From the IMG/VR virus record IMGVR_UViG_3300046462_000093, positions 1 to 58,313 of that record: 58,313 nt of DNA; one strand, written 5' to 3'. The notes below the pieces were generated by a model. That model made no database searches, was not told the DNA's origin, and saw only the letters and a program-made list of their open reading frames with translations. Below are positions 2,412 to 23,154 of this stretch, piece by piece. The stretch comes from a virus. How positions within the stretch are numbered: position 1 is the stretch's first letter; every line of letters starts with the position of its first letter. Made by a program: the position numbers and the translations under genes.

Positions 2412-3119
2412 ATGTTCAAGCGCATTGCTATTGCTCTTATTGCTTCGCTTGCTTGCGGAGCGGCGATTGCTGGATTTTGGAATACGACATTCCCGATTAT
2501 TGGTGGTGCTGCCTACAATTGCAGTACTACAAATGCTGTTTCTACTTGTAGCGTTCCTGCTGGTCCTGCTACTGTTACAGGTGCCGAGACTATTCCAGTC
2601 GATACTAATCTTTCTAATGGCCAGTCGCCTCAGACTGCTATTATGACAACTGCAACGCTGGCTAATTATGCTCGCGGTACTGCATTGCTTTACTCAACTG
2701 GTACACCTGTTGCTGGTGTTGCTGGTACAGGTGAACAGACTTTGGCAACATATACACTTCCGGCTAATACTCTTATTGCCGGTCGATTTATTAAGATTAG
2801 AGCATCGTTTACAGGTGCTGGAAACGGCAATAACAAAACATATAAATGCTACTTCGGCGCTTCCGTTATTAGTTCTGGTACTTTGACTGATAGCGGTAAG
2901 AACGGTTCTTGTGAATTGAATGTTTATTATACTTCTTCTGCTGCTACGCAGGAAGTGTATGGTAACATGATCCATGATACCACGGCAATCACAACTTATG
3001 TGAATGCCGGTACTGATGATGCTTCTGCTGCAATTACCATTAAGTTTACTGGTCAAGGTGGTACGTCTGGTATTGACGTTACGATGGATACATTTTCCGT
3101 CGAATTGGCTGGTCTGTAA
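2412..3119 (+). CDS. exported beta-rich protein with Sec signal peptide
   Basis: 235 residues. It starts with a textbook signal peptide (K-R, hydrophobic core, cleavage after AIA near residue 21). The mature part is Thr/Ala/Gly-rich and beta-predicted. A TYTLPANTL-x-AGRFIKI-x-ASFTGAGNGNNKTYKCYFG segment, then ITIKFTGQGG and VDVTMDTF-like strands, resemble small jelly-roll or fibre-tip domains of phage structural proteins. First gene of the signal-peptide cassette between the two terminase genes. Confidence 0.75.
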   Translation: MFKRIAIALIASLACGAAIAGFWNTTFPIIGGAAYNCSTTNAVSTCSVPAGPATVTGAETIPVDTNLSNGQSPQTAIMTTATLANYARGTALLYSTGTPVAGVAGTGEQTLATYTLPANTLIAGRFIKIRASFTGAGNGNNKTYKCYFGASVISSGTLTDSGKNGSCELNVYYTSSAATQEVYGNMIHDTTAITTYVNAGTDDASAAITIKFTGQGGTSGIDVTMDTFSVELAGL

Positions 3120-3148
3120 GCAGCAACGCAGCAGCAGGGGTTAAAATT

Positions 3149-4063
3149 ATGAAGAAATTTTTGATTGCGACTGCACTTGCTCTGATTAGTACAGGTGCAT
3201 TTGCTCAGAATAGCGTTTTTACTGCTACTTACCCTTTGGCTAAGTATTTGCCGGGATTTAGAACTATTAATGGTACGCAACTTAACAGTATGGTTGCTGA
3301 AGTTAATTCCTTGACGGGTACGGGCACTTTAAAGCCTATTACCGGAAGTCAGCTTACACTTACAGGTGCTTCCGCAACTGAATTGACGGTTGGCAGGCTT
3401 GGTGCAACCACGCCTGCTTTTACTGTTGATAGTTCGACAGGTTCTCAGACAGCAGGATTGAAGATTACAGGTGCGGCTCTTAACGGAACCGTTGCTGTTG
3501 TTGTTACTGATACAAGCGGTAACACTAATTTAACTGTTAACGCTCTTGGTACTGGAACAATTGGCGTCGGTACTGTTTCTACAGGACGAGTGACGATTAC
3601 TCCTGTAACGACAATTACAGGTGCCTTGACCTTGGGCGGTCTTGGTACTGATAGCGGGCAGACCGCTACAGCTACGGTTTGCGAGGATACAACTACCCAC
3701 GTTACTTACTTTGGTTCTGGTGCGGCTGGTATCTGTAAGGGTACATCTAGTCGTCGCTTCAAGCACGACATTGAAGATTTGACGGTTGGTTTAAATGAAA
3801 TTATGGGTTTGCGTGCGACAAGTTATTACCTCAATGCTGATATGGGCGATGCAACCAAGAAGATTTATGGTTTCATTGCTGAAGAAAGTGCGGCATCGTT
3901 ACCGGAATTGGTTGGCTACGACAAGAACGGCTTGATTAGTTCATTTGATCTTGTCGGTGTTGTTCCGGTACTTGTTAAGGCTGTGCAGCAATTGCAAGGC
4001 GAAATTGATGCTTTAAAGCTTACTCGTTCGGCAAGTTTGACGCCAGCGAACATTTCTAAATAA
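3149..4063 (+). CDS. tail-fibre-like protein with signal peptide and C-terminal S74 chaperone domain
   Basis: 304 residues: signal peptide 1-19 (cleavage after AFA), then a YLPGFRTINGTQLN-x-MV module (about 29-50), a Thr/Gly-rich beta region, and a C-terminal Peptidase_S74-type intramolecular chaperone from about residue 200 (SSRRFKHDIEDL, YGFIAEE, SSFDLVGVVPVLVKAVQQLQ, final coiled coil). S74 domains trimerise fibres or spikes and cleave themselves off, usually at a Ser near the domain start. The fibre identity is secure. A signal peptide on such a protein is unusual. The N-terminal module is shared with the gene at 4738. Confidence 0.85.
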   Translation: MKKFLIATALALISTGAFAQNSVFTATYPLAKYLPGFRTINGTQLNSMVAEVNSLTGTGTLKPITGSQLTLTGASATELTVGRLGATTPAFTVDSSTGSQTAGLKITGAALNGTVAVVVTDTSGNTNLTVNALGTGTIGVGTVSTGRVTITPVTTITGALTLGGLGTDSGQTATATVCEDTTTHVTYFGSGAAGICKGTSSRRFKHDIEDLTVGLNEIMGLRATSYYLNADMGDATKKIYGFIAEESAASLPELVGYDKNGLISSFDLVGVVPVLVKAVQQLQGEIDALKLTRSASLTPANISK

Positions 4064-4080
4064 CAATCCTCCCTGGACTA

Positions 4081-4108
4081 CTCTCGCGCAAATGCGAGAG
4101 GATTTTTT
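4081..4108 (+). terminator. rho-independent terminator
   Basis: 7-bp stem CTCTCGC (4081-4087) with GCGAGAG (4094-4100), 6-nt loop, followed by GATTTTTTAG. It directly follows the S74 fibre gene. Confidence 0.8.
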
Positions 4109-4122
4109 AGAACGGGATAATT

Positions 4123-4566
4123 ATGTTTAAAATTTTAACAATCTTATTCAGCTTGTTTGCTACATTAGCACAAGCACAATCGACGCAACGATTATGTTAT
4201 ACTACCAATGGATCTAATTGTGCTCCATCCATTCAAGCTTCTAAGACAATTCCAATTAATATTGCTTCTGCAACTACTACGGAACTTGTTGCATTAGTAG
4301 CTAATCAAACAGTTTATGTTACGTCTTGGGATGTAATGGCCGGTGGAACTGGCAATTTTACGCTCGAATATGGCACAGGAACGACTTGCGGAACGGGTAC
4401 AACGATCCTTACAGGTGCTTATCCGTTGATCGCACAAGCGGGTATTTCTAAAGGTAATGGTCTTGGTCCGGTTTTGATTGTACCTTCTGGTAATGCTTTG
4501 TGCGCTGTAACAAGCACAGGTGTACAATTCAGCGGTTCGATTTCTTATGCTCAATTTAAAAACTAA
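4123..4566 (+). CDS. exported small beta-rich protein
   Basis: 147 residues with a clear signal peptide (cleavage after AQA, residue 18). The mature part begins with RLCYTTNGSNC and continues as alternating strands with TVYVTSWDVMAGGTGNFTLEYGTG and CAVTSTGVQFSGSISYAQ. It contains several Cys that could form disulphides after export. Similar proteins occur as fibre-associated or decoration-like genes in phages. The precise function is unknown. Confidence 0.7.
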   Translation: MFKILTILFSLFATLAQAQSTQRLCYTTNGSNCAPSIQASKTIPINIASATTTELVALVANQTVYVTSWDVMAGGTGNFTLEYGTGTTCGTGTTILTGAYPLIAQAGISKGNGLGPVLIVPSGNALCAVTSTGVQFSGSISYAQFKN

Positions 4567-4735
4567 ACTATTTTTAGCACTAATTGTTGCATGTATTAGT
4601 TCTGGTGCAATTGCCGGAACAATTTTACTATTAGGTGTTGGTTTGGGAACTCCTGCTAGCGGCCCCCCTCCTATGTGCTCGAATAGCCTTGATTTTAGTG
4701 ATCAGTGTAATAGTCAATACGTTGGAACATTTTAA
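4547..4735 (+). CDS. small exported protein
   Basis: 62 residues from the ATG at 4547, overlapping the end of the preceding gene by 20 nt in another frame. Signal peptide or anchor 1-23 (cleavage after AIA), then a Gly/Pro linker and a C-terminal CSNSLDFSDQCNSQYVG stretch with two Cys. The role is unknown. The dense packing with neighbours suggests translation coupled to 4123-4566. Confidence 0.6.
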   Translation: MLNLKTKLFLALIVACISSGAIAGTILLLGVGLGTPASGPPPMCSNSLDFSDQCNSQYVGTF

Positions 4736-4737
4736 AA

Positions 4738-6189
4738 ATGTTTAAGCTACTTTCAGCAGCATTATTTGGATTATTTGTTAGTATTGGTGCTGCTGATGCA
4801 CAACAGCAATTGTTACATTATCTTCCATCTGCAAGAACAATTAGTGGTTCACAACTTAATTTGATGGTTGATCAGGTAAATGGACTTACAGGGAATGCTA
4901 ATCAACCAGCGGGAAATTTAGTAGGTACACGTTTAACTTTAACAAAAGGTGGAGTATTAAATAGAGCAATTAATATTTCTAGTTTACCGACTGTTGGTAA
5001 TTGGAACTCAGTTTTAACAGCTTGTAATGGTGATGATAGTAAAGTATTTATCATTACTTGTTTTCAAACAACAGGTGTTAATACATTAACGCAACCTACT
5101 TCAGGCTATGTTTATCTTCAGGAAGCTTATCCAAAATCGATGTTTTATTACAATAATTCTGGATTTAACAATAGTACTTCTGGTAATAATGGAAGAACAG
5201 CAGCAGTAGGAGACTATATTAAACTTGGTCAAGCTGGTCAAGGTGATATGGTTGGTCATACTGTGCAATGTCAATTAGATACGCAAACATTAGCTGGATA
5301 TACAAATGTTCTAGCAAATCCAGCTTGTGTTTTGTTTAACGGGGACGCAAAAGCCGGGGCAGATGGTCAATATCTTAATTTAACCGAATTTGATGCTAAT
5401 GATGGAGGTTTTGACGTTGCTGCTGCTGGTAGTGTAATAAATTTATCGCGTTCTGTAAATACAGGAGCAAATAAAGCATTTTGGTACGGAATAAGAGTAC
5501 AATCAAATGGATCAACGCAAGCTGATACGGCATTTTCAGCAACAGGATCGGGGGGCTATCGTTTCGGTTTAGATGTTTCAAATGCGACATTAGATGCCAA
5601 TGCTGCTGCAATTACTCTTTCTGGAAATCAACGTGTTTATTTAAATTCAACTGCTGGAAATTTGTTTCCGTCAGCAGTCGGAACTACATATTTTTCATAT
5701 AATTCTACTGATAGTTCTGTTGAATTAGTTGTTGGTGGAGTTCAGCAACTTGCTATTTCAAGTACATATGTAGGAGTTGTAAATAAAACTGCTATTAATA
5801 GTGGCGATAGATTTGGCGTAGCTGGATCATTAACTAATAATTTAGGAATGACAATTGATAACAGCAACGTAGCTGTTACTGCTACAAGTATATTACATTT
5901 TGCCAATAATAATTCAGCAACGCAAGCTGCAATTACATTAAATGGTGGAAATTTTAGCGGTGGTCAAGGTGCAAATGCACTTTCTATTAGTAATGCAAGC
6001 ACTGCACCAATTGTTTTAGGTACAGGTACAGAAGTTATTAAATTTGGTAGTTCTGGCGCTTTTACTGCTAATGGATCAACTGCAACAGCTATGTCCTCAG
6101 TTGGTCCTACTGGTTCCCACACAACTATCCAAAAATGGCTTACAATTACTGATAGTGGCGGCACAGTTGGTTATATTCCTGTATTTTAG
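4738..6189 (+). CDS. large exported fibre-like protein
   Basis: 483 residues with signal peptide (cleavage after ADA, residue 21). Residues 29-53 (YLPSARTISGSQLNLMV, VNGLTG) repeat the module at the N terminus of the S74 fibre at 3149, suggesting a common attachment domain. The remainder is Asn/Ser/Thr-rich, beta-predicted and strand-turn repetitive. It ends in a QKWLTITDSGGTVGYIPVF tail, a form common at the C terminus of phage fibre-type proteins. It is probably a surface fibre or adhesin. Confidence 0.7.
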   Translation: MFKLLSAALFGLFVSIGAADAQQQLLHYLPSARTISGSQLNLMVDQVNGLTGNANQPAGNLVGTRLTLTKGGVLNRAINISSLPTVGNWNSVLTACNGDDSKVFIITCFQTTGVNTLTQPTSGYVYLQEAYPKSMFYYNNSGFNNSTSGNNGRTAAVGDYIKLGQAGQGDMVGHTVQCQLDTQTLAGYTNVLANPACVLFNGDAKAGADGQYLNLTEFDANDGGFDVAAAGSVINLSRSVNTGANKAFWYGIRVQSNGSTQADTAFSATGSGGYRFGLDVSNATLDANAAAITLSGNQRVYLNSTAGNLFPSAVGTTYFSYNSTDSSVELVVGGVQQLAISSTYVGVVNKTAINSGDRFGVAGSLTNNLGMTIDNSNVAVTATSILHFANNNSATQAAITLNGGNFSGGQGANALSISNASTAPIVLGTGTEVIKFGSSGAFTANGSTATAMSSVGPTGSHTTIQKWLTITDSGGTVGYIPVF

Positions 6190-6201
6190 GAAAATATTTT
6201 T

Positions 6202-7890
6202 ATGAAACATATTTGCACAAAAATATTAGTTTTTATCTTCTCGCTAATTTTAGTCGATCCGTTGTGGGCAGCAGATAATGCTGTTGTAGTAACTGTCGGT
6301 AGCGGTCTTACATTGCGAAGTCGTGATGTTGGAGCGGGTGTGCAGTCGCTTCAACAGATTTTAGGTGATACTTCCGGTAATGCTATTTATGGTACGGCTG
6401 GCACAGCCAATTCAAATGTTTTGACTATTCAGGGTATTGCTTCTGGTACAACCGTTCCGATTACTGGAACACTTACTGCTGTTACTGCTATTACAAATGC
6501 ATTGCCTGCTGGAACGAATGTTATCGGGCATGTTATAGTTGATACAACATCGACTACAGCAGTTACACAAGCGACAGGTACAAATTTACATGCTGTAATT
6601 GATACAGGTTCTACAACTGCCGTTACACAAGCTACAGGAACTAATTTACATTCTGTTGTTGATAGCGGCACTATCACTACAGTATCGACTGTTACGAATT
6701 TGGCGCAGATGAATGGTGCTGCATTACTTATGGGTAATGGTGTTACTGGAACAGGTTCTCAGCGAGTTACGATTGCGAGTGATAATACAGCATTTTCAGT
6801 GAATGCCACGCTTTCTGCTGAAACTACTAAAGTTATCGGTACTGTTCGCAATCTTGGTAATGCTGGTGCAATTACTGATTTTGTTGGTCAGGCAGCTACC
6901 GCTCCTGCTAATGCATGGCTTGTTGGTGCAACTTTCTTTACAACACCTACAACATTGACTAATGGTCAAGCATCCCCATTGCAACTTGATAATGCTGGAA
7001 ATCTTTTAGTTAATATTAAAGCTGGTGCTGGTTCTGGTGGTACAGCATTAGCTGATGAGGCTACTTTTACTCAGGGAACAACTAGTCTTACTCCGGTAGG
7101 CTGTACGTTCAACAATTCGATTACTAACCTGACTTCTGGTCAAGCAGGTGTGTTTTCTTGTACAGCAGCCCGTTCACTTCATACGACAGTGGATAATGCG
7201 AATGCGAATGGTTCTGCTACATCGGCTAATAGCTCGCCTGTAGTTATTGCTAGCGATCAAGTTGCAGTCGCTGTCAAGGCTGCTTCTGGAACGATTGCGA
7301 GTGGTGCCATTGCTTCTGGTGCAGTAGCTTCTGGTGCAATATCTAGTGGTGCGTTTGCTTCTGGTTCTATTGGTTCTGGTGCTGTTGCTAGTGGCGCTGT
7401 TGCATCAGGTGCTTATGCTTCCGGTTCGCTTTCTTCTGGTGCTGTAGTCGATATTACGAATATGTCGGTTACGACAGGATCAGCACCACCTAGTAAAGCT
7501 TTATATGTTGGTGCTAATGCTTCTGGTGCAACAGGCGGTCAAGTTGCTGGTTTAATTACTTGTGATAAGCATGTATTTAAGCATATTACAAGTGCTACTG
7601 ATACTCTCGCAGTACAAGGTGTTGCATCGCAGACTATTCGGATTTGTGGTTGGCGTTCGCGTGCTGCTGGTGTTGCAACATGGTTTCTTGAAAATACAGC
7701 TTCTGCTAATGCTAATTGTTCATCTTCTAATACACAGATAACAGGTGTTGCAACTGAAGCTGCTAATACCGGTGAAACAATGCTCGCTGCATATTGGACT
7801 GGACTTGCTAATACATCCGGTAACGGTCTTTGCATTAATAGTACTGGGACCGGCGGTGTGGATATAGATGTTTGGTATAACCAATTTTAA
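6202..7890 (+). CDS. exported fibre/adhesin-like protein with silk-like repeats
   Basis: 562 residues: signal peptide 1-23 (cleavage after LWA), beta-rich N-terminal half with a near-duplicate pair (TAVTQATGTNLH twice, near 117 and 139), then an array of eleven five-residue units (about residues 361-415, pattern A/S-S-G-A-hydrophobic). The Cys-containing C-terminal domain (CDKHVFKHI, IRICGWRS, FLENTASANANC, LCINSTGTGGVDIDVWY) resembles binding tips seen on phage fibres. Low-complexity beta-stacking repeats fit an elongated shaft. Same orientation and tight spacing as the rest of the cassette. Confidence 0.7.
   Translation: MKHICTKILVFIFSLILVDPLWAADNAVVVTVGSGLTLRSRDVGAGVQSLQQILGDTSGNAIYGTAGTANSNVLTIQGIASGTTVPITGTLTAVTAITNALPAGTNVIGHVIVDTTSTTAVTQATGTNLHAVIDTGSTTAVTQATGTNLHSVVDSGTITTVSTVTNLAQMNGAALLMGNGVTGTGSQRVTIASDNTAFSVNATLSAETTKVIGTVRNLGNAGAITDFVGQAATAPANAWLVGATFFTTPTTLTNGQASPLQLDNAGNLLVNIKAGAGSGGTALADEATFTQGTTSLTPVGCTFNNSITNLTSGQAGVFSCTAARSLHTTVDNANANGSATSANSSPVVIASDQVAVAVKAASGTIASGAIASGAVASGAISSGAFASGSIGSGAVASGAVASGAYASGSLSSGAVVDITNMSVTTGSAPPSKALYVGANASGATGGQVAGLITCDKHVFKHITSATDTLAVQGVASQTIRICGWRSRAAGVATWFLENTASANANCSSSNTQITGVATEAANTGETMLAAYWTGLANTSGNGLCINSTGTGGVDIDVWYNQF
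7282..7446 (+). repeat. tandem 15-bp coding repeat, 11 units
   Basis: Eleven consecutive 15-bp units (165 bp, no interruptions) coding for five-residue A/S-S-G-A-(I/V/F/Y/L)-type units inside the gene at 6202-7890. Codon choice varies between units while the amino-acid pattern is kept, so protein structure rather than recent DNA slippage seems to be selected. Confidence 0.85.
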
Positions 7891-7892
7891 CT

Positions 7893-8639
7893 ATGCGTAA
7901 AACAATCGCTCTTTATTTTGTGCTTTGCGCGCTGCTTTATGCGGCTGCGCAATGTTTTGCGCAAGTTCCGAGTAGTCATGCTGGTCTTGGAACGCCTGCT
8001 GTTAGTGGCGGATCGTCAGTTACTGTTGATGCTTGTGCAACATCCGCACATAGTGCCGCCGGTCAGGTTACATATGCTTTTACCGGACAAACTGTAGGGG
8101 CAGGTCTTACAAACGGCGCTCTAGTATTTACCATAGCATTTACCACCGTCGTCACGGCTTCGACGGCTGTTTGGGACTTGGCTGGCGCTAATCAGTCAAT
8201 GACGAAGATTTCTAACGCCACAACTGGTTCTGGGCACGTAGAGTTATGGGGGTTGGTAAATCCAACTGCGGGCAACAAAACAGCAACTTTTGCTTGGACA
8301 AATGTATCACAGATTACGGTTGGAGGCTGTTCTTGGTCAAACGTAAACCCAGCTGGAGGCGGCACAAGTTTTCCAGCAGCAACGCCGGCAACCGGCACAA
8401 GCACGGCTCCTGCTATCACTATTACAAGCGCCACTAATCATGCTGTTATGGCGGTTCATACCGGGCCAGATGGTAGCTACAACATAACCGCTGTTGATCA
8501 CACTCAAGTCTATCTTGACAATGTAACCTCCATTGGGACGGGCGCAAACCGCGCCGCTGGGGCCGCGACAGTTACGTTAGGAGCAACCTTTGACGCATCT
8601 GTAGCGTGGACATCAATCGGTACGGACATATCGAATTGA
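7893..8639 (+). CDS. exported beta-sandwich-like protein
   Basis: 248 residues with signal peptide (cleavage after CFA, residue 23). The mature part is Thr/Ala/Gly-rich with strands such as VTYAFTGQTVG, ALVFTIAFTTVV and HVELWGLVNPTAGNKTATFAWTN, an immunoglobulin-like or carbohydrate-binding style of fold. Base composition is more GC-rich than in the preceding genes, suggesting a separate origin together with the next gene. Function unknown; probably a surface or fibre component. Confidence 0.65.
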   Translation: MRKTIALYFVLCALLYAAAQCFAQVPSSHAGLGTPAVSGGSSVTVDACATSAHSAAGQVTYAFTGQTVGAGLTNGALVFTIAFTTVVTASTAVWDLAGANQSMTKISNATTGSGHVELWGLVNPTAGNKTATFAWTNVSQITVGGCSWSNVNPAGGGTSFPAATPATGTSTAPAITITSATNHAVMAVHTGPDGSYNITAVDHTQVYLDNVTSIGTGANRAAGAATVTLGATFDASVAWTSIGTDISN

Positions 8640-8642
8640 GCC

Positions 8643-10484
8643 ATGCGGAAAAGTTTAGCCGTCATTTTGCTTTCGATATGCGGTTTCTCATTATCGACAT
8701 GCATTATAGGGGTGTTTGTTGATGCCGCTTTAGGTGCTTTTAGCATCTTCCAAGCCGCGTCCAACATAGGCGGTGGCTGGACGAACCTTCAACCAATCAC
8801 GGGATCAGGTACGTGCAACACGGCTGGAACCGGAACCTACACCGGCTCTTGCCTTTACTATGTCTCGCACAGCACCGGCAACGATAGTAACAACTGCGCT
8901 TCAACTCCACCAATCAACAACAGCTTTGCGACACCATGCCTAACGCTGGCGCACGTACAAGGAATGATGCGGGCTAATAAGCCGGATTGGACACTTGGGT
9001 TGACCGGCGATACATGGACGGGCGAAGGATTTAATAATCCTCAAACGGGTGTGTCTGCTGCTGCACCACAAGTTTATACATCATATGGTTCTAGCACCGC
9101 TCGACCGATTATCATTTCCAATAGTAGCGTTAAAGAAGCATGGCAAAGTAACGGTGGGACGACAGACTTTAATGCAATCGTGGGGTGGGAGTTATATTCA
9201 GCTACACGGGACCCAAATAACGGCGCGTTTAGCGGAACTGACGCCGCCGACGCTGGATTTATCGGTATTGATATGGAGAGTGGATTTACTTGGTTTCTGG
9301 TAGAAGATTGTTTCATACATTTTTACGCAATCGAAAATGTTCTGATCCAGCCTCTTGTGAATAAAGGTACTGGAGCTTTGCAGTTTCGTCGGAACGTGGT
9401 TGCAGACTCATATAGCGAGGGGAGTCATTCACAGGGCATATTCGTAAGTTTTACTGCCTCCGGTTTGATCGAAGAAAATGTTTTCGATCACAATGGCTGG
9501 AATGAAACAATCGGCGGCTCTGCTGGTGCTACAGTATTCAATCACAATATTTATAATGCTTGCAATAACGGTCCAATGACGATTGTCGGAAATACATCTG
9601 GTTACGCCTCCGCGAACGGGATGCAGGGACGCCCAGGAGGCAGCGGCAGCAACAACCTGACTTTTGACAACGCTGTTTCGGCACTGCCTGCGAATTGCTC
9701 GGGAAATACTTATAGCAGCCCGCCAACAACAACATGGCAGTACAACGTATTTCTGGAAGGAGCAAACCGGGCGTCTGTCGCGGATAGCTGGGGACCGTCT
9801 ATAAACGTCAACGGAACGATGGTTTACGACCATAACATATCGGCGCACTCGTTGAGCGGGACCGCCCTCACTGGGCTTCTAGTCAACAATTGGGGCACTG
9901 ACATTTCCGCAGCGTCGCCTGCTGTAGCGACATTACAGAACTTCACCAATACCGATCCTTCCGCATTTCAAGACAATGAGCCGATTAGTTTTAATACAAT
10001 TGGAACGGCAGTGCTGCCAACTGGTTTGACGGTCGGAACAACATATTATGTCAAGAATTGGAACTCAACCACTTGGACGTTCAATATTTCTGCCACTCCC
10101 GGAGGATCATCTATCAACACAACGGGAAGTTCCTGTTCATCCTCCGGGCCAAATGATTGCGGTGTGCAGGCCATTACGGACAGGCTAACCGTTTCCAACA
10201 GCATTGTTTGTGACTGGAATGGTGGCTATAGCGATCTTGCCATCGGAACGACTAGCACCGGCAATACGTTCCAAGCCGCCAACTGTACATCAATCGGGCC
10301 AAACCCAACACGGACGCTCGGGCAGTATTACGCCAGCATCGGCAACCCCGGTGGCAAGCCTTCGACCACACGCGGGTTCATGGATGCGTCAAAGCTGCAA
10401 AGCAAAGCGAACTGGGTGCCGGCATTGATGGCAAAGGCGACTAACTGCTACTTTCAAGCTGGGCTAGGTATGACGTGCCCTTGA
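8643..10484 (+). CDS. exported right-handed beta-helix protein, possible tailspike or polysaccharide-active enzyme
   Basis: 613 residues. N-terminal hydrophobic signal or anchor (about residues 1-28, cleavage site unclear). LYYVSHSTGNDSNNC (about 72-87) followed by TPCLTLAHVQ is the typical entry to pectate-lyase-like beta-helix proteins. Residues 150-430 have regular rung spacing (NVLIQPLVN, FRRNVVADS, IEENVFDHNGW, FNHNIYNACNNG). A small PTGLTVGTTYYVKNWN module, frequent in phage fibres, sits near 450. The family includes capsule- and LPS-degrading spikes, but no catalytic residues can be named. More GC-rich than its surroundings. Confidence 0.65.
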   Translation: MRKSLAVILLSICGFSLSTCIIGVFVDAALGAFSIFQAASNIGGGWTNLQPITGSGTCNTAGTGTYTGSCLYYVSHSTGNDSNNCASTPPINNSFATPCLTLAHVQGMMRANKPDWTLGLTGDTWTGEGFNNPQTGVSAAAPQVYTSYGSSTARPIIISNSSVKEAWQSNGGTTDFNAIVGWELYSATRDPNNGAFSGTDAADAGFIGIDMESGFTWFLVEDCFIHFYAIENVLIQPLVNKGTGALQFRRNVVADSYSEGSHSQGIFVSFTASGLIEENVFDHNGWNETIGGSAGATVFNHNIYNACNNGPMTIVGNTSGYASANGMQGRPGGSGSNNLTFDNAVSALPANCSGNTYSSPPTTTWQYNVFLEGANRASVADSWGPSINVNGTMVYDHNISAHSLSGTALTGLLVNNWGTDISAASPAVATLQNFTNTDPSAFQDNEPISFNTIGTAVLPTGLTVGTTYYVKNWNSTTWTFNISATPGGSSINTTGSSCSSSGPNDCGVQAITDRLTVSNSIVCDWNGGYSDLAIGTTSTGNTFQAANCTSIGPNPTRTLGQYYASIGNPGGKPSTTRGFMDASKLQSKANWVPALMAKATNCYFQAGLGMTCP

Positions 10485-10516: not shown

Positions 10517-12982
10517 ATGGCTGAAATTGAGTATCCAGAAGAATTATTATTTTTGATTGAACAACCTGCCCGTTACAAGATATTGTACGGCGGTCGGGGA
10601 GGGATGAAATGCCTTGCGTTAGGTACTAAAGTAATAATGTTTGATGGCTCTTTAAAGCAAGTCGAAGATGTAAAGCACGGCGATTTATTAATGGGACCGG
10701 ATAGTTTACCGCGTAAAGCGTCTAATACTACTTGCGGTAAAGATATAATGTATCGAATTACTCAAACTTCTGGTATTTCATATGTTTGTAACAGTGCTCA
10801 CATTCTCTCATTAAAAAAGTCTGAAAGTGCTATTAATGATGTTGGAGAAATTTCAAAAGCTGGTAATGCAAGGCGTCCTAATGGACGATACGGTGCTTAT
10901 CCGAAGATTACTAACATCAATGTTGTTGAAGCTAGTAAGCAAACTGTCAGATGGAAAAGCCATTTTAGAGGTTATAAAGCAGGGTTAATTAAATTTGAAG
11001 AAAAAGAGATTTTGATTAATCCTTGGTATTTAGGATATTGGCTTGGCGATGGAAAATCTAGCGATACGATTGTATATAGTGCGGAGGAAGAAGTTTTAAG
11101 TTTTTGTAAAGCATACGCTCTTTATAATTTAGGAATGAAGATTGTTATTTATCCGCAAAAATCTAATTGTATAGGGATAGCGATTAGGAAAAACGAAGGC
11201 TTTCACGGCAGAATTAACAATTTGTGGCAGTTTTTTAAAAAATACGATTTGTTTGATAATAAGCATATTCCGTTTGAGTATTTGACTAATTCAGAAGAAA
11301 TCAGATTAGACGTTCTAGCTGGTTTAATAGATAGTGATGGAACAATACACAGTAATGGATATGATATTTATCAAACAAGTGAAAGATTAGCTAGAGATAT
11401 TAAATATCTTGCTGATACATTAGGATTTAGAACTAATATTTCACACAATAAAACAGTTTGTGGGAATAATGGAGTTGAAGGGAAAGCCTATAGGGTGTCT
11501 ATTAATGGGGATACTTGGCGTATTCCGTGTAAGGTAAAGAGAAAGATAATTAAGCAGGATCAAGTTAGAAAGAATAAAGACTTTTTGCTTTCACAAATTG
11601 ATATTACTTGTATTGGCGAAGGTGAATATGCAGGCTTTTCATTAGATGGTGATGGATTATTTTTGTTAGAAGATGGGACAGTAACACACAACACTGAAAC
11701 AACTGCTATTGCATTAATTATTCTTGCTTCACAAAAAAAATTACGCATTGCTTGTTTTCGTGAAATTCAAAAGTCGATCAATGAAAGTGTTTACGAAACA
11801 ATCAAAAATCGCATTATCGAAATGGGTTGGGAAGCTGAATTTGATATCTTATCTACAACAATAATTTCAAAGCGAACGGGGGCAGAGTTTATATTTTTTG
11901 GATTGCGCTATAACATCAATTCGATCAAATCAATTGCACGTATAGATATAGCATGGGTAGAGGAAGCAACGAACGTAAGCAAAGTATCTTGGGACAAGTT
12001 GACGCCTACCATTCGCGGACGCGGTAAAAATATTTACTTAAGCAACATCGATGAAAATCAAGGTGGACCGTTCGGCAAAGGAACCGAAATTTGGATTACG
12101 TTCAATCCTGAATTGGATACGGATGAAACCTATAAACGCTTCATATTGAAGCGCGATCAATATGCACCTGATTATGTGACAAACGACAAAGGAGAAAAAG
12201 TCAGGTATGCTTTCGTCAAGATGCTCAGTTACAAGGATAATCCTTGGCTACCGGATGATTTGAAACTTGAAAGCGAGCTTCTTAAGGCGACTGACGAAGA
12301 TGAATGGATGCACGTTTGGGGCGGTCAAACCAAGCAAACCTTGACCGGAGCGATTTACGCCAAGGAAATCAAAAAGGTTTTGCTTGACGGACGGCGCGGA
12401 AAAGTTCCTTATGATAGCTCACGTCCTGTTCATACATTTTGGGATTTGGGGCATGATGATTATACTTCGATTTGGTTCGTTCAACAAGTAGGTGTTGAAT
12501 ACAATATTATTAATTTCTTTCAAGATAGATTGCAGAAACTACCTTACTACATAGAACAATTGCAAGATTTGAAATACAATTACGGTTTTCATTATCTGCC
12601 ACATGATGGTGACAACGAAACATTAGCAAGCCGTAGTCCAGCTAAGATTATTCGTGATGCTTATCCGGGCAAGGTTAAGATTGTTCCGCGCGTGACGAAG
12701 AAAGTTGTGGGCATTCGAGCGGCACGCGTTGTATTTGATCTTTGTAATTTTGATGAAGAAAATACTGCTGACGGTTGGCAATGTTTGTGCAGATATTGCT
12801 ATGATGTTGATGAAGATGGAAGGTTTAGCCAAAATCCGCGACATGATGATAATTCGCATGGAGCGGATGCATTTCAAACATTTGCATTGTCTTTAAAGCC
12901 AGAACAAAAACCATTACCACCAAAGACTGTTGGAAGTGGCAAAGTATTGCGAATACATAACGGCGCGGGTTGGATGCGCTAA
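10517..12982 (+). CDS. terL: terminase large subunit precursor with intein
   Basis: 821 codons. The spliced protein would be 460 residues. The N-extein YKILYGGRGGMK and C-extein TETTAIALIIL together rebuild a terminase P-loop (GGRGGMKT). Downstream lie the Walker B-like IDIAWVEEA and the RNase H-like nuclease part: TFWDLGHDD (first acidic residue), QVGVEYNIINFFQ, YHYLPHDGDN-like (HYLPHDGDN) and the final DDNSHGADAF. It powers DNA packaging and cuts the concatemer. The 361-residue insertion is described separately. The portal follows 17 nt downstream, as in most tailed phages. Confidence 0.93.
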   Translation: MAEIEYPEELLFLIEQPARYKILYGGRGGMKCLALGTKVIMFDGSLKQVEDVKHGDLLMGPDSLPRKASNTTCGKDIMYRITQTSGISYVCNSAHILSLKKSESAINDVGEISKAGNARRPNGRYGAYPKITNINVVEASKQTVRWKSHFRGYKAGLIKFEEKEILINPWYLGYWLGDGKSSDTIVYSAEEEVLSFCKAYALYNLGMKIVIYPQKSNCIGIAIRKNEGFHGRINNLWQFFKKYDLFDNKHIPFEYLTNSEEIRLDVLAGLIDSDGTIHSNGYDIYQTSERLARDIKYLADTLGFRTNISHNKTVCGNNGVEGKAYRVSINGDTWRIPCKVKRKIIKQDQVRKNKDFLLSQIDITCIGEGEYAGFSLDGDGLFLLEDGTVTHNTETTAIALIILASQKKLRIACFREIQKSINESVYETIKNRIIEMGWEAEFDILSTTIISKRTGAEFIFFGLRYNINSIKSIARIDIAWVEEATNVSKVSWDKLTPTIRGRGKNIYLSNIDENQGGPFGKGTEIWITFNPELDTDETYKRFILKRDQYAPDYVTNDKGEKVRYAFVKMLSYKDNPWLPDDLKLESELLKATDEDEWMHVWGGQTKQTLTGAIYAKEIKKVLLDGRRGKVPYDSSRPVHTFWDLGHDDYTSIWFVQQVGVEYNIINFFQDRLQKLPYYIEQLQDLKYNYGFHYLPHDGDNETLASRSPAKIIRDAYPGKVKIVPRVTKKVVGIRAARVVFDLCNFDEENTADGWQCLCRYCYDVDEDGRFSQNPRHDDNSHGADAFQTFALSLKPEQKPLPPKTVGSGKVLRIHNGAGWMR
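10610..11692 (+). mobile_element. intein with LAGLIDADG homing endonuclease in the terminase P-loop
   Basis: 361 codons in frame. It begins with Cys32 of the precursor (block A CLALGTKV-x-MFDG, then VEDVKHGD), with a block B-like SYVCNSAHILSL. The central endonuclease has two dodecapeptide-like motifs (YLGYWLGDGKSS and DVLAGLIDSDGT). It ends with block F (YAGFSLDGDG-x-FLLEDGTV) and block G THN, followed by Thr as the +1 nucleophile. All residues needed for splicing (Cys1, block B His, penultimate His, Asn, Thr+1) are present, so it should be active. Confidence 0.93.
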
Positions 12983-12999: not shown

Positions 13000-15351
13000 A
13001 TGGCTTGGGGTAGTTCTTGGGACGATGAATTGCAAGTACTTCCCGATCAAGGTGAGGAAGAAAAGCATATTATTGAAGTTCTAAAGAAACGTTATACAAA
13101 ATGCATTGATTGGGAAGCTGAAGCACGTAATAGGTTTGATTATGATTACAAGTTTGCGAATGGAGATACCCACAACAAGTATCAATGGGATAGCGATCTA
13201 GTTAATCAACGTGAGCTTGAAGATAGACCAGTTTTAACAGTTAACAAGACGCAGCAGCATAATCTTTTAGTTATCAATGATGCGAAGCAGAATAAGCCGG
13301 GTATTCGCATTCGTCCGGTTAGTGACGAAGCATCGTTTGAAGCGGCTGAAATCTATCAAGAATTAATCTATCATACCGAATACATTTCTAATGCTGAAAC
13401 CGTTTATGATAGTGCAACGACTTATCAAGTCGAAGCAGGTATCGGTTATTGGCGGGTAATTACTGATTGGCTCGATAATGGGTCATTCGATCAGGAAATT
13501 TATATTCGTCATATCAAAGACCCTCGTTGCGTCTATCTTGATCCTGATATCAATGAAATCGACGGTTCGGATGCTCGATTTGGCATTATTTTTGAAGATA
13601 TGCCGAAGGACTTATTCAAGGAACAGTATCCGAAGTTTGCTGCACTTTCCAATTCTAGCTCGATTGGTAATGATGGCTGGATAGGTAAGGATGAAATCAA
13701 GATAGCTGAATACTATTACAAAGAAGAAAATCAAGACAAGCTTATTACATGGCTTGATCAAAATGGACAGGTGCTAAGTCAGCTTAGTAAGTTGGACGCT
13801 AATCAAAAATTGATGTATCGTGAAATCAAGAAAGCCGGAAAGGACGTACAAGCTACTTATCAATTTCGCGAACGCAAAATCATTACCGAAGATATTACAT
13901 GGTGCAAGATTGCTGGTGATCGCATAATTGATCAAAAACCTTGGCCCGGCAAATATATTCCGATTGTTCGTTTAGTTGGAACCGAAACGGTTATTGATGG
14001 TGTGCTTGATCGAAAAGGTCATACGCGCGCACTTATCAACGCACAGCAGATTTACAACTACAATACCAGTGCAAATGTTGAATATGGAGCATTGCAGACT
14101 AAAGCACCATGGCTTGCACCATCACAAGCTATCTTAGGCTTTGAACAATACTACAAGACAGCAAATACAGACAATCATAGCTATTTGCCGTACAATCATA
14201 TTGATCAAGATGGCAATCCTATTCCGGCACCGCAGCGACCACAACCGCCGCAACCGGGTACTGCGTATGTTGAAGGCATCAAGATCGCTCAAAATGAAAT
14301 GATGATGGCGAGCGGTCAATGGCAAGCGCAGTTAGGAGAAAACGAAAATGCTAAATCAGGCGTGGCAATTAACGCTAGACAGCGTCAAGGGGACCGATCC
14401 ACTTATCACTTTATTGATAATTTGGCTATTGCTATTCGCTATACTGGCAAGGTCTTAATCGATCTTTATGCCAAGGTTTATGATACGAAGCGATTGAAGC
14501 AAATTCTGACGCGCGATGGACGTAAAGTTAATATTCAAATCGATCCGCAAGCGCCACAAGCGTATCAGAAAGGACCGACTTTAAATCTTGATCAAGATCG
14601 ATCCAAGCAAATCGAGCAAGTGGTATTCAATCCTAATGTGGGCATGTATGATTTGCGTGCCGATAGCGGTCCATCTTTTGCAACACGGCGCATGGAAGCA
14701 TTTAATGCATTAAGTCAATTGGCACAGTCGCAAAATTCAAATCTGATGCAGATTGCTGGCGACTTGTTCTTTAAGGTTGCGGACTTCCCTGAAGCTGATA
14801 TATTGGCTGATCGTTATCGTCGCACGATACCGCCTAATATTCTTGGTGATGAACCTAATCCGCAACAAGAACAGTTAATGCATCAGGCATCTGATAAGAT
14901 ACAACAGTTGACGGCAATGATCGGAGATTTGACTAAGAAGCTATCCGATAAGGATCGTGAATTGGATATTAAGGCTGGTGAATTGACATTGCGTGAAAAG
15001 GAAGCTTCTGTTGAACAGCAACGGCTCGATTATGATGCAGAGACAAAACGCTTAACTGCCTTGGGCAATTCCGGTCCTGGATTGTCGGTTGAACAGATAC
15101 AACCGCTTGTCAAGCAAATCGTTCGTGGTATGCTCAATGCTGGTGAGCCTGGGGCAGGCGAACTAGAGCACTTGCCGGGCCCGCACGAAGGCGGTACGCC
15201 TATCGAGCCACCTGAACCGGGGGAGGAAGGAAACGCTAATGGTGAGCCTTCGCAGCCTCGACAGCCGCCTATTCCTGGGGCGACCTTGGCCCCGGACGGA
15301 AAGCACTATCTGAAAATAGGTAATCAATATCATCGTGTAGAGCCGGCTTAA
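13000..15351 (+). CDS. portal protein, P22 gp1-like
   Basis: 783 residues, close to the size of P22-type portals. Recognisable features: YDYKFANGDTHNKYQW near the start, RPVLTVNKTQQHNLLVINDAKQNKP-like segment (about 76-100), GIRIRPVSDE, YQVEAGIGYWRV and IRHIKDPRCVYLDPD. A long helix (TKKLSDKDRELDIKAGEL) near 640-690 matches the barrel helix, and there is a Pro/Gly-rich C-terminal tail. Twelve copies form the portal ring through which DNA enters and leaves. It lies between terL and the polyvalent protein. Confidence 0.9.
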   Translation: MAWGSSWDDELQVLPDQGEEEKHIIEVLKKRYTKCIDWEAEARNRFDYDYKFANGDTHNKYQWDSDLVNQRELEDRPVLTVNKTQQHNLLVINDAKQNKPGIRIRPVSDEASFEAAEIYQELIYHTEYISNAETVYDSATTYQVEAGIGYWRVITDWLDNGSFDQEIYIRHIKDPRCVYLDPDINEIDGSDARFGIIFEDMPKDLFKEQYPKFAALSNSSSIGNDGWIGKDEIKIAEYYYKEENQDKLITWLDQNGQVLSQLSKLDANQKLMYREIKKAGKDVQATYQFRERKIITEDITWCKIAGDRIIDQKPWPGKYIPIVRLVGTETVIDGVLDRKGHTRALINAQQIYNYNTSANVEYGALQTKAPWLAPSQAILGFEQYYKTANTDNHSYLPYNHIDQDGNPIPAPQRPQPPQPGTAYVEGIKIAQNEMMMASGQWQAQLGENENAKSGVAINARQRQGDRSTYHFIDNLAIAIRYTGKVLIDLYAKVYDTKRLKQILTRDGRKVNIQIDPQAPQAYQKGPTLNLDQDRSKQIEQVVFNPNVGMYDLRADSGPSFATRRMEAFNALSQLAQSQNSNLMQIAGDLFFKVADFPEADILADRYRRTIPPNILGDEPNPQQEQLMHQASDKIQQLTAMIGDLTKKLSDKDRELDIKAGELTLREKEASVEQQRLDYDAETKRLTALGNSGPGLSVEQIQPLVKQIVRGMLNAGEPGAGELEHLPGPHEGGTPIEPPEPGEEGNANGEPSQPRQPPIPGATLAPDGKHYLKIGNQYHRVEPA

Positions 15352-18300
15352 ATGGCTAAGACGCTGCAATATACTGCTGATGGATTACCATATTATCAAG
15401 ATGATAATAATCCATTGCCTGTAGATCAAAGTTATGATCCTGCTACAGGTGTCAGTTATCCGACTTCAACTTCTCCATATACTTCTGGCTTGCCAGTCGA
15501 AAAGAATAGCCTTGTCGATATATTGACAGGTGCCGGTGGTGGCGAGCGTTATCAATTGTTTCCTGAAAAGATCGTGCGTTCGGCTTTGAGCTTGCCCACA
15601 GATGTAATGCAGGGTAAGGTGCAAACGCCTATTGTGCCGCCATCTGTACCGATCAGTAGTGATGTTGGCGGCGAGGATGAATTATTGCAGCGTGTTCAAG
15701 ATATGGCTGCAATGATGGGTGGTGGTGGAGTTGGTATGGCTGAAAAAGGTGCAGTTGGAAGTGCGGGAGGGAAGTTAGTACAGCCTGAAATTAAAGCACC
15801 GTTGCTTAATAAATTTGGTGAAGGATATGAATTTAATGTAGAGCCTAGTTCAATTAGTAAAAATGGATATGAAGCAACTGTAATACCAAAAGATAGAAGT
15901 GGATTTCAAAAATACAAACCTAGAAATAATAAAGATGACATTCATTATTATGATCCGAAAATTGCAGAACTGAAAACATTTGATAAGGGCGAACCTTATG
16001 AATTTCAAGTTCCACAATTAAAAACAAACAGCGGTCTTAGTAATTCAATCGAACCTTTATCTGATCCGAATACTATTTATCGAGGTATGTCGGCTGGCGA
16101 GTATAATAATTTTTTGCAAACTGGTAAAATTCAATCTAACGGTGAGTACAATTTAGAAGGTCAAAACGGTTTAACGTATTGGTCTAGTGATCCTAAATCG
16201 GCAGTTAGTTATAGTAATAGTTTTGCGCCAGCAAAATTTAAAGCTCGTCCCGATGCTCCTGCTTATGTAGTAGCTACTAGAAAGCCAAATGAAGTTGTTA
16301 ATGTAAATGGAGTTGATAGCCATGAAGTTGGAGTTAGCCGCCCTATTGATAAATCTGAAATCATTGGAATTTGGGAAGGGAAACCATATAGTATTGAACC
16401 GTTTAAAATATCTTTAAGACCGTCTAATAATGGTTACGCTGAAGGTAGTTCTGTTACAGGAAGTCCGCAGTTAGGATGGAGAAATATTCTTAAATCCGAC
16501 AACGAAGCCGCTGCACCAATAGCAGCATTAGAGAAAGCACCTACCTTTTATTCAGCCGTCGAAAATGCAGTTAACAATGCATCGATGAAGGCTGCACCAG
16601 CAAAGCAATGGCTATCAACTATATCGAACAGCAAAGGTGTCAAACCTGAAGAATTAGATTGGACTGGATTGAAGGATTATCTTGGCGAGAAGGATGGACC
16701 GATATCGAAGCAAGAGGTACAGGATTATTTGCAGGCTAATAAGGTGCAGTTGAAGGAAGTACAAAAAGCACCAGAACAATTAAACATTAAGCCTTCAGAT
16801 GAATACGAAGGGGAATTTGATGTAGTTGATAATAGAGGAAATGTTAGGTTTACTGGTGCTAATAGAGAAGATGCTGAAGGTTATGTAAATGAAGAAAAAG
16901 AATTAGGTGGTCGCAATCCTACCAAATATTCCAAATATCAACTTCCTGGTGCCGAACCGAATAGCTATAGGGAAATGTTGTTGACGTTGCCAAATAAAGT
17001 AGAATTAGCTAAAACTCAATTAAAAAATGCTATAGGCAATGGGATAGAATGGGGTAAAGGTAAACTATATTCTGATGAAATTATTAGAGGTTTAGCTAAT
17101 GAAGATTTGAGTGTTAGCGATCTACCGTCTAATTTACATAGTGTTGCTGCAAATTTTGTAGATACCTATAAGAATAGCAATAACTACAAATCCTCTCATT
17201 GGGACGAACCAAATATCCTTGCGCATGTTCGTGTCAATGAACGCAATGTTGTTGGTGAAAATGGACAGAACGATGCTAAACGTTCTTATCATGTAGAGGA
17301 AGCGCAATCTGACTGGCATCAGCAAGGTAGGGAAAAGGGATACAAACTATCGAAGGAACAGGAAGCAAAGCTAGAGCCTGAATTTAATCGTATTGATGAT
17401 AAGATTGTTAATTCAGGTGATGAAGAAGTAATGGGGCATCCTGATATTAATAAAGCCGTCAAGATGGCTGTTGATCGAAAGATAATCACACCTGAAGAAG
17501 CTAAGACATATTTGCGCTACTCGGATAGTCAGCGATTAGGTGCTGTTCCTGATGCACCATTCAAGCGTACTGATCAATGGACCGATCTAGTTGTTAAGCG
17601 CATTATTCGTGATGCTGCTGAAAAGGGATTAGATCGTATTAGCTGGACACCTGGGGAAGCACAGGCGGCTAGGTATGATTTGAGTAAGCAGATAGATGAA
17701 TTGCATTATAATCCTGATACTTGGAAATTGATTGCCCGTAATAATGGGCGTGATATGATAAATGAAAATAATGTTAGACCGGAACAATTAGCAGATTATA
17801 TTGGAAAGGAAGCTTCTGAAAAATTAATGTCGCGAGGTTCTAATTCAAATGGTTTGCGATCATTACGCGGACAGCAATTAAAAATCGGTGGCGAAGGTAT
17901 GCGCTACTATTACGATAAGATATTTGCTAAGGCTATGGAGAAATGGACGGGAGAGAAGGTAAAGGAAGGGAAAACTACAATACCTGATAAATTTGATAAA
18001 GAAGCTCCGTTTATTGTTCGCAATGCTTCTGGTGAAGTAGTTTATAATAATATATTTGATGAAAATTATGCTAGAAGATTAGCTAGTGAAATCGAAGGTG
18101 GCACTTATCATAATGCTAGTAAAAAACCAATTGGTACAAAACAATCTGTTTCCTACATCGATCTGCCTCAATCCGTTAAAGATACAGCCTTAAGAAAAGG
18201 CTTTCCGCTCTTTAGTTCTGGCTTCATGCTTAATCCGGTTGAAGGAAATCCGCTTATTAACAATAAGCAAGACGTTCCTTATGGTGCAGGAGCGAGCAAT

Positions 18301-18708
18301 ACAGAAAGCGGATATCCTGTAAACATAGACAAGCGTATTCCTCAATTTGATAATCGTTTAAAGCTTCCTAACGGTCAACCGGCAAATTTACACAAATATC
18401 TTATGGTCCATGAAATTGAAGAACATAAAGCAATGCAACAAGGAATGCCTTACGAAAAAGCACATTTGAATGTGGGCACGCCTGCTGAAAGAAAAGCTGT
18501 AGAAGCCGACGGTGTTAATTGGGGCGAATATGAAAAAATAATGGATGGATATTTAGCTCAGACTGAACATGAAAATCCTAAAGACCCTCCTAAAAATCTT
18601 TTTAAAGACCCTTATCCTCACAAGAAGCAAGTTTTGCTTGAAAAGAACGCGGCGGCGAAGTACAAACTTGTGCCAGTGCAAGGTAATCCGTTTTCGGTGA
18701 AGAAATGA
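15352..18708 (+). CDS. polyvalent virion-type protein with ADP-ribosyltransferase-like domain
   Basis: 1118 residues, starting one base after the portal stop. Residues 1-150 are Pro/Gly-rich and disordered. At about 240-345 a segment TIYRGMSAGEYNNFLQTG, LTYWSSDPKSAVSY and HEVGVSRPIDKSEIIG has the R / S-T-S-like / E layout of ADP-ribosyltransferases. Residues about 625-960 (YHVEEAQSDWHQQGREKGY, SWTPGEAQAARYDLSKQ, GGEGMRYYYDK, DTALRKGFPLFS) match a domain typical of large polyvalent proteins of phages and mobile elements. Near 1020 a VHEIEEHKAM motif with AHLNVGTPAERKAVEADGV may be metallopeptidase-like. Likely packaged and ejected into the host; enzyme activity is inferred. Confidence 0.7.
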   Translation: MAKTLQYTADGLPYYQDDNNPLPVDQSYDPATGVSYPTSTSPYTSGLPVEKNSLVDILTGAGGGERYQLFPEKIVRSALSLPTDVMQGKVQTPIVPPSVPISSDVGGEDELLQRVQDMAAMMGGGGVGMAEKGAVGSAGGKLVQPEIKAPLLNKFGEGYEFNVEPSSISKNGYEATVIPKDRSGFQKYKPRNNKDDIHYYDPKIAELKTFDKGEPYEFQVPQLKTNSGLSNSIEPLSDPNTIYRGMSAGEYNNFLQTGKIQSNGEYNLEGQNGLTYWSSDPKSAVSYSNSFAPAKFKARPDAPAYVVATRKPNEVVNVNGVDSHEVGVSRPIDKSEIIGIWEGKPYSIEPFKISLRPSNNGYAEGSSVTGSPQLGWRNILKSDNEAAAPIAALEKAPTFYSAVENAVNNASMKAAPAKQWLSTISNSKGVKPEELDWTGLKDYLGEKDGPISKQEVQDYLQANKVQLKEVQKAPEQLNIKPSDEYEGEFDVVDNRGNVRFTGANREDAEGYVNEEKELGGRNPTKYSKYQLPGAEPNSYREMLLTLPNKVELAKTQLKNAIGNGIEWGKGKLYSDEIIRGLANEDLSVSDLPSNLHSVAANFVDTYKNSNNYKSSHWDEPNILAHVRVNERNVVGENGQNDAKRSYHVEEAQSDWHQQGREKGYKLSKEQEAKLEPEFNRIDDKIVNSGDEEVMGHPDINKAVKMAVDRKIITPEEAKTYLRYSDSQRLGAVPDAPFKRTDQWTDLVVKRIIRDAAEKGLDRISWTPGEAQAARYDLSKQIDELHYNPDTWKLIARNNGRDMINENNVRPEQLADYIGKEASEKLMSRGSNSNGLRSLRGQQLKIGGEGMRYYYDKIFAKAMEKWTGEKVKEGKTTIPDKFDKEAPFIVRNASGEVVYNNIFDENYARRLASEIEGGTYHNASKKPIGTKQSVSYIDLPQSVKDTALRKGFPLFSSGFMLNPVEGNPLINNKQDVPYGAGASNTESGYPVNIDKRIPQFDNRLKLPNGQPANLHKYLMVHEIEEHKAMQQGMPYEKAHLNVGTPAERKAVEADGVNWGEYEKIMDGYLAQTEHENPKDPPKNLFKDPYPHKKQVLLEKNAAAKYKLVPVQGNPFSVKK

Positions 18709-19403
18709 AGTCTGGTATTTATCAAATTTTAAATACTATTACAGGGTTAATATATATTGGAAGTGCTGTTCATTTCCAATTACGTTGGAATTGTCATAAA
18801 AGTGAATTAAGAAATAACAAACATGCTAATAAAAGATTACAAAATTCTTGGAACAAATACGGCGAAGGTGGTTTCAAATTTGAAATCTTAGAGCAGGTGT
18901 TAGATAAAACAAGATTGCTTGAACGGGAGCAATTGTGGATTAATTGGACTTTATGTTATCAAAGAGAATTTGGATTTAATATTTGTAAAATTGCTGGTAA
19001 TAGTTTAGGAGTAAAAGCAACAGAAGAAACAAAAGCTAAAATACGTCTTGCTAACATAGGTAAAAAATTATCAGAAGAACATAAAGCTAAATTAGTTATC
19101 GGCAGTACAGGTAAATTCTTTTCGGAAGAAAGGCGCAGAAAAATTTCCAAATCTAAAATTGGAAAAAGACGTGAGGATATGAAAGGTAATCAATACACTA
19201 AGGGAACTAAACTTTCAGAAGATCATAAAAAGAAAATATCAAAAGGTTTGAAAGGTCGAGATGAAAGTTATAAAAGAAAATCGGATAAATGGCCGCATGG
19301 TAGTCGTTGCATTTGTAGAGAATGTAAAGAAAAAAGGACTAATCTATATAATATTTGGAAAAATAAAGTTATGCCATTTGTAATGGTGAATGCAAATGTC
19401 TAA
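18705..19403 (+). CDS. GIY-YIG homing endonuclease (copy 1)
   Basis: 232 residues. GIY-YIG core SGIYQILN-x6-IYIGSA (residues 3-20), conserved NSWNKYG (47-53), FKFEILE and LEREQLWINW. The C-terminal half contains repeated NUMOD-like DNA-binding units (EETKAKI, SEEHKAKL, SEERRRKISKS, SEDHKKKISKGLKG). A late HGSRCICRECKEKR could bind zinc. It begins on the ATGA overlapping the stop of the polyvalent gene and its stop overlaps the next start. AT-rich, and paralogous to the gene at 45374-46066. Confidence 0.9.
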   Translation: MKSGIYQILNTITGLIYIGSAVHFQLRWNCHKSELRNNKHANKRLQNSWNKYGEGGFKFEILEQVLDKTRLLEREQLWINWTLCYQREFGFNICKIAGNSLGVKATEETKAKIRLANIGKKLSEEHKAKLVIGSTGKFFSEERRRKISKSKIGKRREDMKGNQYTKGTKLSEDHKKKISKGLKGRDESYKRKSDKWPHGSRCICRECKEKRTNLYNIWKNKVMPFVMVNANV

Positions 19404-19605
19404 CAAAATAACAGCAGCTTCATTTTGTTTAGTATTATTTATCAATCAAGCCGATGCTAAATCAATTCCTGGTTGGGGACGGTTGGCTACTGGTAATGAT
19501 ATGCGTCGGTCGCATTTGCATGATATTTATTGTAAAGCAGCAATGGAACACGCTTTGTGGGCAGCGCAACATGGTCATTTAATTGAAAATAGTAGATGTT
19601 GGTAA
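19396..19605 (+). CDS. small exported protein
   Basis: 69 residues from the ATG at 19396 (an ATG two codons upstream is also possible). Its start overlaps the stop of the homing endonuclease gene. Signal peptide 1-21 (cleavage after ADA); the mature part KSIPGWGRLATGNDMRRSH continues with two Cys. Function unknown. It contains one copy of the TGTGGGCA octamer (19556), read as Leu-Trp-Ala. Confidence 0.6.
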   Translation: MSNKITAASFCLVLFINQADAKSIPGWGRLATGNDMRRSHLHDIYCKAAMEHALWAAQHGHLIENSRCW

Positions 19606-19606
19606 A

Positions 19607-20047: not shown

Positions 20048-20051
20048 AGAA

Positions 20052-20288
20052 ATGGCTAAACGTAGCAAACTTCCTGTAAACAAATTGCCGACAAGCACAG
20101 CTATTGCAGATAGACCAGCACCATATAAACCGACTAAGCAAGAGTTGGATCGCGAGCGTCGATGGAAAGCAGAAGATGCAATGCGCGATCTTGAACGGGC
20201 TGAAGGTCATAAGAAAGACAAAGACCTTATGGCTGATGTAAAGCAAATTGCTTCCGAGAAGATTGACTGTTTAAAGAGGATTAAATAA
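20052..20288 (+). CDS. small basic helical protein
   Basis: 78 residues, highly charged and Lys/Arg-rich (MAKRSKLP start; helix ELDRERRWKAEDAMRDLERAE). It lies 4 nt after the previous gene and 1 nt before the next, so it belongs to the morphogenesis operon. No domain recognised; possibly a nucleic-acid or scaffold-binding accessory. Confidence 0.65.
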   Translation: MAKRSKLPVNKLPTSTAIADRPAPYKPTKQELDRERRWKAEDAMRDLERAEGHKKDKDLMADVKQIASEKIDCLKRIK

Positions 20289-20289
20289 T

Positions 20290-20772: not shown

Positions 20773-20773
20773 C

Positions 20774-21652: not shown

Positions 21653-21670
21653 ATTTCTACTAATAGCCTC

Positions 21671-23124: not shown

Positions 23125-23154
23125 CTTTCATACAATAACTTAGGAGCATTGATT

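Follow-up and report, generated by a model that had tools for sequence, protein, structure and literature searches.

Predicted Sec leaders on the tailspike and fibre-like proteins of a P22-like podovirus, and a possible assembly of its virions in two compartments

The terminase interval and other leadered genes

The DNA analysed here, a single IMG/VR record (IMGVR_UViG_3300046462_000093) of 58,313 bases taken whole and referred to as the window, encodes a P22-type portal (Pfam PF16510, 2.1e-143), a P22 coat protein (PF11651, 5.6e-25), a DNA ejection protein (phrog_26400) and both terminase subunits. On the basis of these genes the window is assigned to a P22-like podovirus of approximately 58 kb, and relatives identified through the portal include records of 56-60 kb. 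For host assignment, genome contigs were profiled with the portal and with the 2412 family, and plasmid sequences were searched with 36061 and 37128; neither gave a match. The principal features are listed below, with genes named by their first position; leaders, cleavage points and mature cysteine counts are predictions.

1744-2385, + strand: terminase small subunit (terS; phrog_5334, 5.4e-13); leaderless, left border of the cassette
2412-3119, + strand: fibre-type protein; Sec leader MFKRIAIALIASLACGAAIA; 4 mature Cys; first and best conserved gene of the cassette
3149-4063, + strand: S74 fibre protein; Sec leader MKKFLIATALALISTGAFA followed by a short anchor-like motif (R.I.G..LN.MV), with an S74 chaperone at the C-terminus; 2 mature Cys
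4123-4566, + strand: small protein; Sec leader MFKILTILFSLFATLAQA; 4 mature Cys
4547-4735, + strand: protein of 39 aa when mature; Sec leader MLNLKTKLFLALIVACISSGAIA; 2 mature Cys
4738-6189, + strand: fibre-like body; Sec leader MFKLLSAALFGLFVSIGAADA, then an N-terminal motif common to 3149; 4 mature Cys
6202-7890, + strand: repetitive fibre-like protein; Sec leader MKHICTKILVFIFSLILVDPLWA; 6 mature Cys
7893-8639, + strand: fibre-like protein; Sec leader MRKTIALYFVLCALLYAAAQCFA; 2 mature Cys if cleavage falls between CFA and Q
8643-10484, + strand: weak leader MRKSLAVILLSICGFSLSTCIIGVFVDAALG followed by 582 aa; 13 Cys, an odd number and an exception
10517-12982, + strand: terminase large subunit (terL) with an intein-like insert; leaderless, right border of the cassette
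13000-30999, + strand: head and tail-core module (P22-type portal, coat, tail accessory and ejection proteins); no Sec leader, one Tat-like leader (20290)
31097-31168, + strand: tailspike Sec leader, ending in ..SLVFA at the cleavage point
31169-31450, + strand: P22-type tailspike head-binding domain immediately after the leader; PDB profile and structure matches
31451-34192, + strand: remaining tailspike body; Phage Tail Collar (PF07484, 6.7e-9); the full mature tailspike has 16 Cys
34194-34916, + strand: GDSL/SGNH esterase-like protein; Sec leader; PF13472 at 9e-5, below the cut-off; 6 mature Cys

Leaders were called with a rule-based scan rather than SignalP, scoring n-region charge, the h-region and an A-x-A-like site and making no use of cysteines; in relatives the best start within 70 codons was chosen. 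Applied to a 35 kb stretch of E. coli K-12 the scan detected 8/8 known exported proteins with 1/23 false positives, and among 59 coding sequences of P22 only Rz and Rz1 reached a score of 6 or more, no leader being called on gp9. The initial annotation had described eight consecutive genes with Sec-type leaders. All eight open reading frames are present with the starts it gave and all display the charged n-region, h-region and cleavage site of a Sec signal peptide; the probability of 8/8 passing when the first 45 residues of each are shuffled is about 5e-7 (the product of per-gene shuffle rates). A failure of prediction for most of the genes, which would have counted against that annotation, did not occur, and the controls worked. 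Its description of most cleavage sites as clear A-x-A holds for 2412 (AIA), 3149 (AFA), 4123 (AQA), 4547 (AIA) and 4738 (ADA); the sites are LWA at 6202 and CFA at 7893, and 8643 is a weak case with ALG and a leader of 31 aa.

The S74 fibre-chaperone domain that had been assigned to one cassette gene is present at residues 200-255 of 3149 (PF13884, 4.5e-11). The short motif shared by 3149 and 4738 aligns with a leaderless cassette gene at an hhalign probability of 70%. An AlphaFold model of the 2412 family, with a pLDDT of 40, was useless.

Outside the cassette Sec leaders are called at 31097, 34194, 36061 and 57964, and 20290 has a Tat-like leader (RRFF). These were among the further leaders already proposed, one of them from position 36073, for which 36061 is the correct start; the scan passes over two others, at 19390/19396 and 37128, which are doubtful. 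Among the remaining genes of the window that were scanned it calls none; these include the terL, portal, coat, tail-core, ejection and replication genes. Leaderless products from alternative translation starts were rejected as an explanation, since a search near the leaders revealed no internal start codon convincingly preceded by a Shine-Dalgarno sequence.

Several other features were observed. The leadered 36061-36789, which resembles an outer-membrane beta-barrel and has no database match, and the leadered esterase-like 34194-34916 both sit near the lysis genes. A small leadered protein without cysteine, 57964-58212, is kept in at least one relative (L022:4225-4494; relatives carry L numbers). 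The Tat-like leader of the virion-module protein 20290-20772 reads SRRFFLGG, and another, TRRGFLAG, occurs on a cassette protein with an odd cysteine count of 9 (L044:5796-7751). The intein-like insert of TerL (10517-12982) is located at Walker A and spans roughly residues 31-393 (CLALGTKVIMFDG ... VTHN); TerL is 450-490 aa long in most relatives and, likewise, over 800 aa in L015 and L019. A related pair at 18705-19403 (+) and 45374-46066 (-), beginning MKSGIYKILN/MKSGIYQILN, resembles GIY-YIG homing endonucleases, and L019:9035-9544, between terL and the portal gene, has a similar start. Upstream of terS are tRNA-Leu(taa) and tRNA-Thr(tgt), at 979-1056 and 1639-1715.

Leaders and cysteines in related phages

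The initial annotation had proposed searching related phages for the same leaders, and the cassette leaders prove to be conserved across the clade. In most relatives the interval between terS and terL holds a cassette of leadered proteins with highly varied bodies. The 2412 family has 20 members, and the 18/18 with intact ends carry a leader of varying sequence and an even number of cysteines. One of the remaining two is cut by a contig end. The other comes from L046, a distant relative; it has neither a leader nor the N-terminal pair of cysteines, and its best-fitting family is tail fiber phrog_4492 (1.9e-32). The L046 match identifies the 2412 family, as judged from sequence, as a fibre module that is leadered in this clade. 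By the same procedure leaders were called on 0/39 terL, 0/37 portal, 0/19 coat and 0/14 tail accessory proteins of relatives; the 2/16 calls on terS are probably false.

Members of the leadered set match the tail fibre families PF13884, PF07484 and phrog_11393, and the leadered L033:6074 matches pectin lyase phrog_32881. Leadered S74 proteins occur in L003, L004, L006 and L007. Among named phages, phiAX1 has two leadered fibre-like proteins, 26418 and 27387, the latter annotated as a glucanotransferase. Two cultured phages are represented, PBR31 by the leadered orf035 (L055:24674-25483), a 'putative structural protein', and BcepC6B by the leadered gp19 (L078:4004-5077), annotated as a tail fiber protein. 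Searches of named phages gave no close match to the cassette with the 4738 N-terminus or with L046, and one partial match with 2412. Polytopic membrane proteins, which may remodel the host surface, are encoded in or beside the leadered cassette at L013:1651, L017:6582, L019:636, L021:347, L032:5332, L033:1581, L038:5940 and L051:3204; the one tested, from L032, is O-antigen ligase-like with a match below the cut-off (PF04932, 9.6e-6).

Among mature leadered cassette proteins 79/86 contain an even number of cysteines (p=8e-17), the figure for leaderless open reading frames of at least 100 aa at the same loci being 129/278. With one vote per family, which controls sequence kinship only partly, 28/32 leadered cassette families are even (p=1e-5). 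Proteins that break the rule include membrane proteins of O-antigen ligase type (PF04932), one with a Tat-type leader, and also 8643. Within the cassette, a gene of about 130 aa that has no leader shows an odd count in 11/14 cases, and the seven members of the 4547 family have 2 cysteines each. When S74 fibres were sampled more widely in IMG/VR, 7/59 were leadered and 52/59 leaderless. Those with leaders have 1.18 Cys/100 aa and an even count in 6/6 of the proteins that contain cysteine; those without have 0.41 Cys/100 aa and an even count in 18/37.

Disulfide formation after export would lead one to expect even counts, as are seen, so that cysteine parity, if indirectly, indicates oxidative folding of a kind proper to disulfide-bonded periplasmic proteins. 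Since parity is independent of leader calling, it and the shuffles together reject a chance or hydrophobic-composition artefact.

The key case is the tailspike gene 31097, which lies outside 2412-10484; its importance was missed in the initial annotation, as was the clade-wide conservation. No virion-binding domain is recognised in most of the cassette proteins, and among the leadered proteins only 31097 has one. Its head-binding domain matches PDB profiles 9vyg (4.5e-11) and 7eeq (1.1e-10). In VIA-align the top 14 rows are all head-binding domains (Pan3, P22, Pam1 and Sf6; Z 7.5-8.8) and the next, unrelated, row scores 5.4, although we caution that the pLDDT of the structure model is low, 58 overall and 70-82 in much of the core. 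The gene follows the ejection genes, as do the spike genes of PBR31 and P26218. Because a Sec leader is present in the window and in seven relatives of about 58 kb, where a P22 tailspike would be leaderless, we regard 31097 as a tailspike with a P22-type anchor and not as a canonical P22 tailspike. Six orthologues read whole have 18, 16, 8, 16, 10 and 10 mature cysteines, all even. In each relative the orthologue is the sole protein found with this head-binding domain. In L061 the start codon of the leader is the only start upstream of the domain, and in L063 the sole alternative start codon falls inside the leader. A leaderless form of the domain is found at the extreme N-terminus of the PBR31, PAE2 and P26218 spikes and of proteins from L065-L077.

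A possible route of assembly and its alternatives

Two questions arise. Are the leadered spikes and fibres really exported? If so, do they become parts of the virion? To the first, the answer is fairly confident: export is very likely on the sequence evidence, and the leaders taken with the even cysteine counts make it very probable that the fibres and spikes are both exported and disulfide-bonded.

The second is less secure. Leader status divides the virion genes by position in the particle, with none on core parts and leaders on peripheral adhesins. We propose that the adhesins, namely the 31097 tailspike and the fibre-like proteins encoded between terS and terL, would be synthesised with cleavable Sec leaders, exported and trimmed by leader peptidase, and would fold in the periplasm with disulfide bonds. 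Heads and tail core would meanwhile be assembled in the cytoplasm with the adhesins absent. Lysis would bring the two pools together, and spikes would attach to finished particles by the N-terminal head-binding domain. In P22 the tailspikes are added last of all and can be joined in vitro to heads that lack them, which makes late attachment feasible; dilution of the pools after lysis means that it would demand tight binding. Standing against the route are the many cassette proteins with no recognised virion-binding domain, and 8643 with its poor leader and 13 cysteines. We judge the chances of the whole route, periplasmic maturation of peripheral adhesins followed by their joining cytoplasm-built particles at lysis, to be evenly balanced. 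The wider proposition, a clade of tailed dsDNA phages with a cytoplasmic capsid and tail core and periplasmic, disulfide-bonded spikes and fibres joined at lysis, is put forward more tentatively, at slightly less than an even chance.

The initial annotation had offered three readings: assembly after export, a surface or periplasmic layer, and a leader serving as virion anchor. The first is the best supported, because the tailspike leader is followed by a domain for binding virions and because the cysteine parity speaks for oxidative folding. The second is the main rival, although an unlikely one. The exported proteins would remain with the infected cell as a layer at its surface or in its periplasm, either masking receptors and so excluding superinfection or remodelling the envelope, and would not be virion parts. 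An O-antigen ligase-like gene lies inside the cassette of some relatives (the L032 match being below the cut-off), the window has the leadered 34194 and 36061, and many cassette proteins have no known virion-binding domain. However, a tailspike that is the only protein found with this head-binding domain in each relative would be needed on virions, and members of the leadered set match tail fibre families.

Cytoplasmic assembly, the norm for virion fibres, lends something to another reading, in which export is partial: some precursors escape Sec, fold in the cytoplasm and enter virions there, while those that are exported have another use or are waste. This is improbable, since strong leaders and cysteine parity suggest selection for the exported form and convincing alternative starts were not found. 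Still less probable is that exported, disulfide-bonded spikes and fibres are freed at lysis as soluble agents that bind or degrade polysaccharide and clear the surroundings; the pectin lyase match of L033:6074 and the glucanotransferase annotation in phiAX1 fit such a role, but a head-binding domain is useless in a free agent. The third reading of the initial annotation, the leader as virion anchor, would make the hydrophobic N terminus not a Sec leader but an uncleaved segment, inserted into the virion or else serving trimer assembly. It draws on cleavage being a prediction and is very improbable: the A-x-A sites are clear, the n-regions carry positive charge, the cysteine counts are even, and in phages whose spikes have no leader this head-binding domain itself forms the extreme N terminus.

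Comparison with known systems

In tailed phages the particles are taken to be finished in the cytoplasm, ahead of lysis. A search of open-access papers yielded no account of tail fibres or spikes with leaders, and the PBR31 paper mentions a signal peptide for the esterase gp40 only. Exported, separately matured spikes and fibres would be a mode of building tailed phages for which no description was found in those papers. Should export of the spikes come first, current views of assembly order, of how fibres fold and of host-range proteins would have to be revised; annotation pipelines would be overlooking an exported class of receptor-binding proteins, and spikes stabilised by disulfides could be put to practical use. 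BcepC6B gp19 and PBR31 orf035, from cultured phages, make the idea directly testable.

With the P22, Pam1 and Pan3 tailspikes, 31097 shares the fold and profile of the head-binding domain, in a genome with P22-type portal and coat and the spike placed after the ejection genes as in PBR31. It differs in a predicted cleavable Sec leader and in its many, even-numbered cysteines, P22 gp9 having scored no leader. The S74 (endosialidase chaperone) domain at the C-terminus of 3149 is that of S74 tail fibres, although most of those sampled are leaderless and poor in cysteine. The coat proteins of filamentous phages are also virion proteins that carry Sec leaders, and they assemble once inserted in the membrane; there the particle is extruded through the envelope, whereas the phage described here is tailed, has dsDNA and encodes terminase and portal. 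The fOg44 endolysin Lys44 and the T4 antiholin RI are also exported by the host Sec system with cleavage of their leaders (PMC6116005, PMC8385771), but those are lysis proteins, and the leadered proteins described here are adhesins of virion type.
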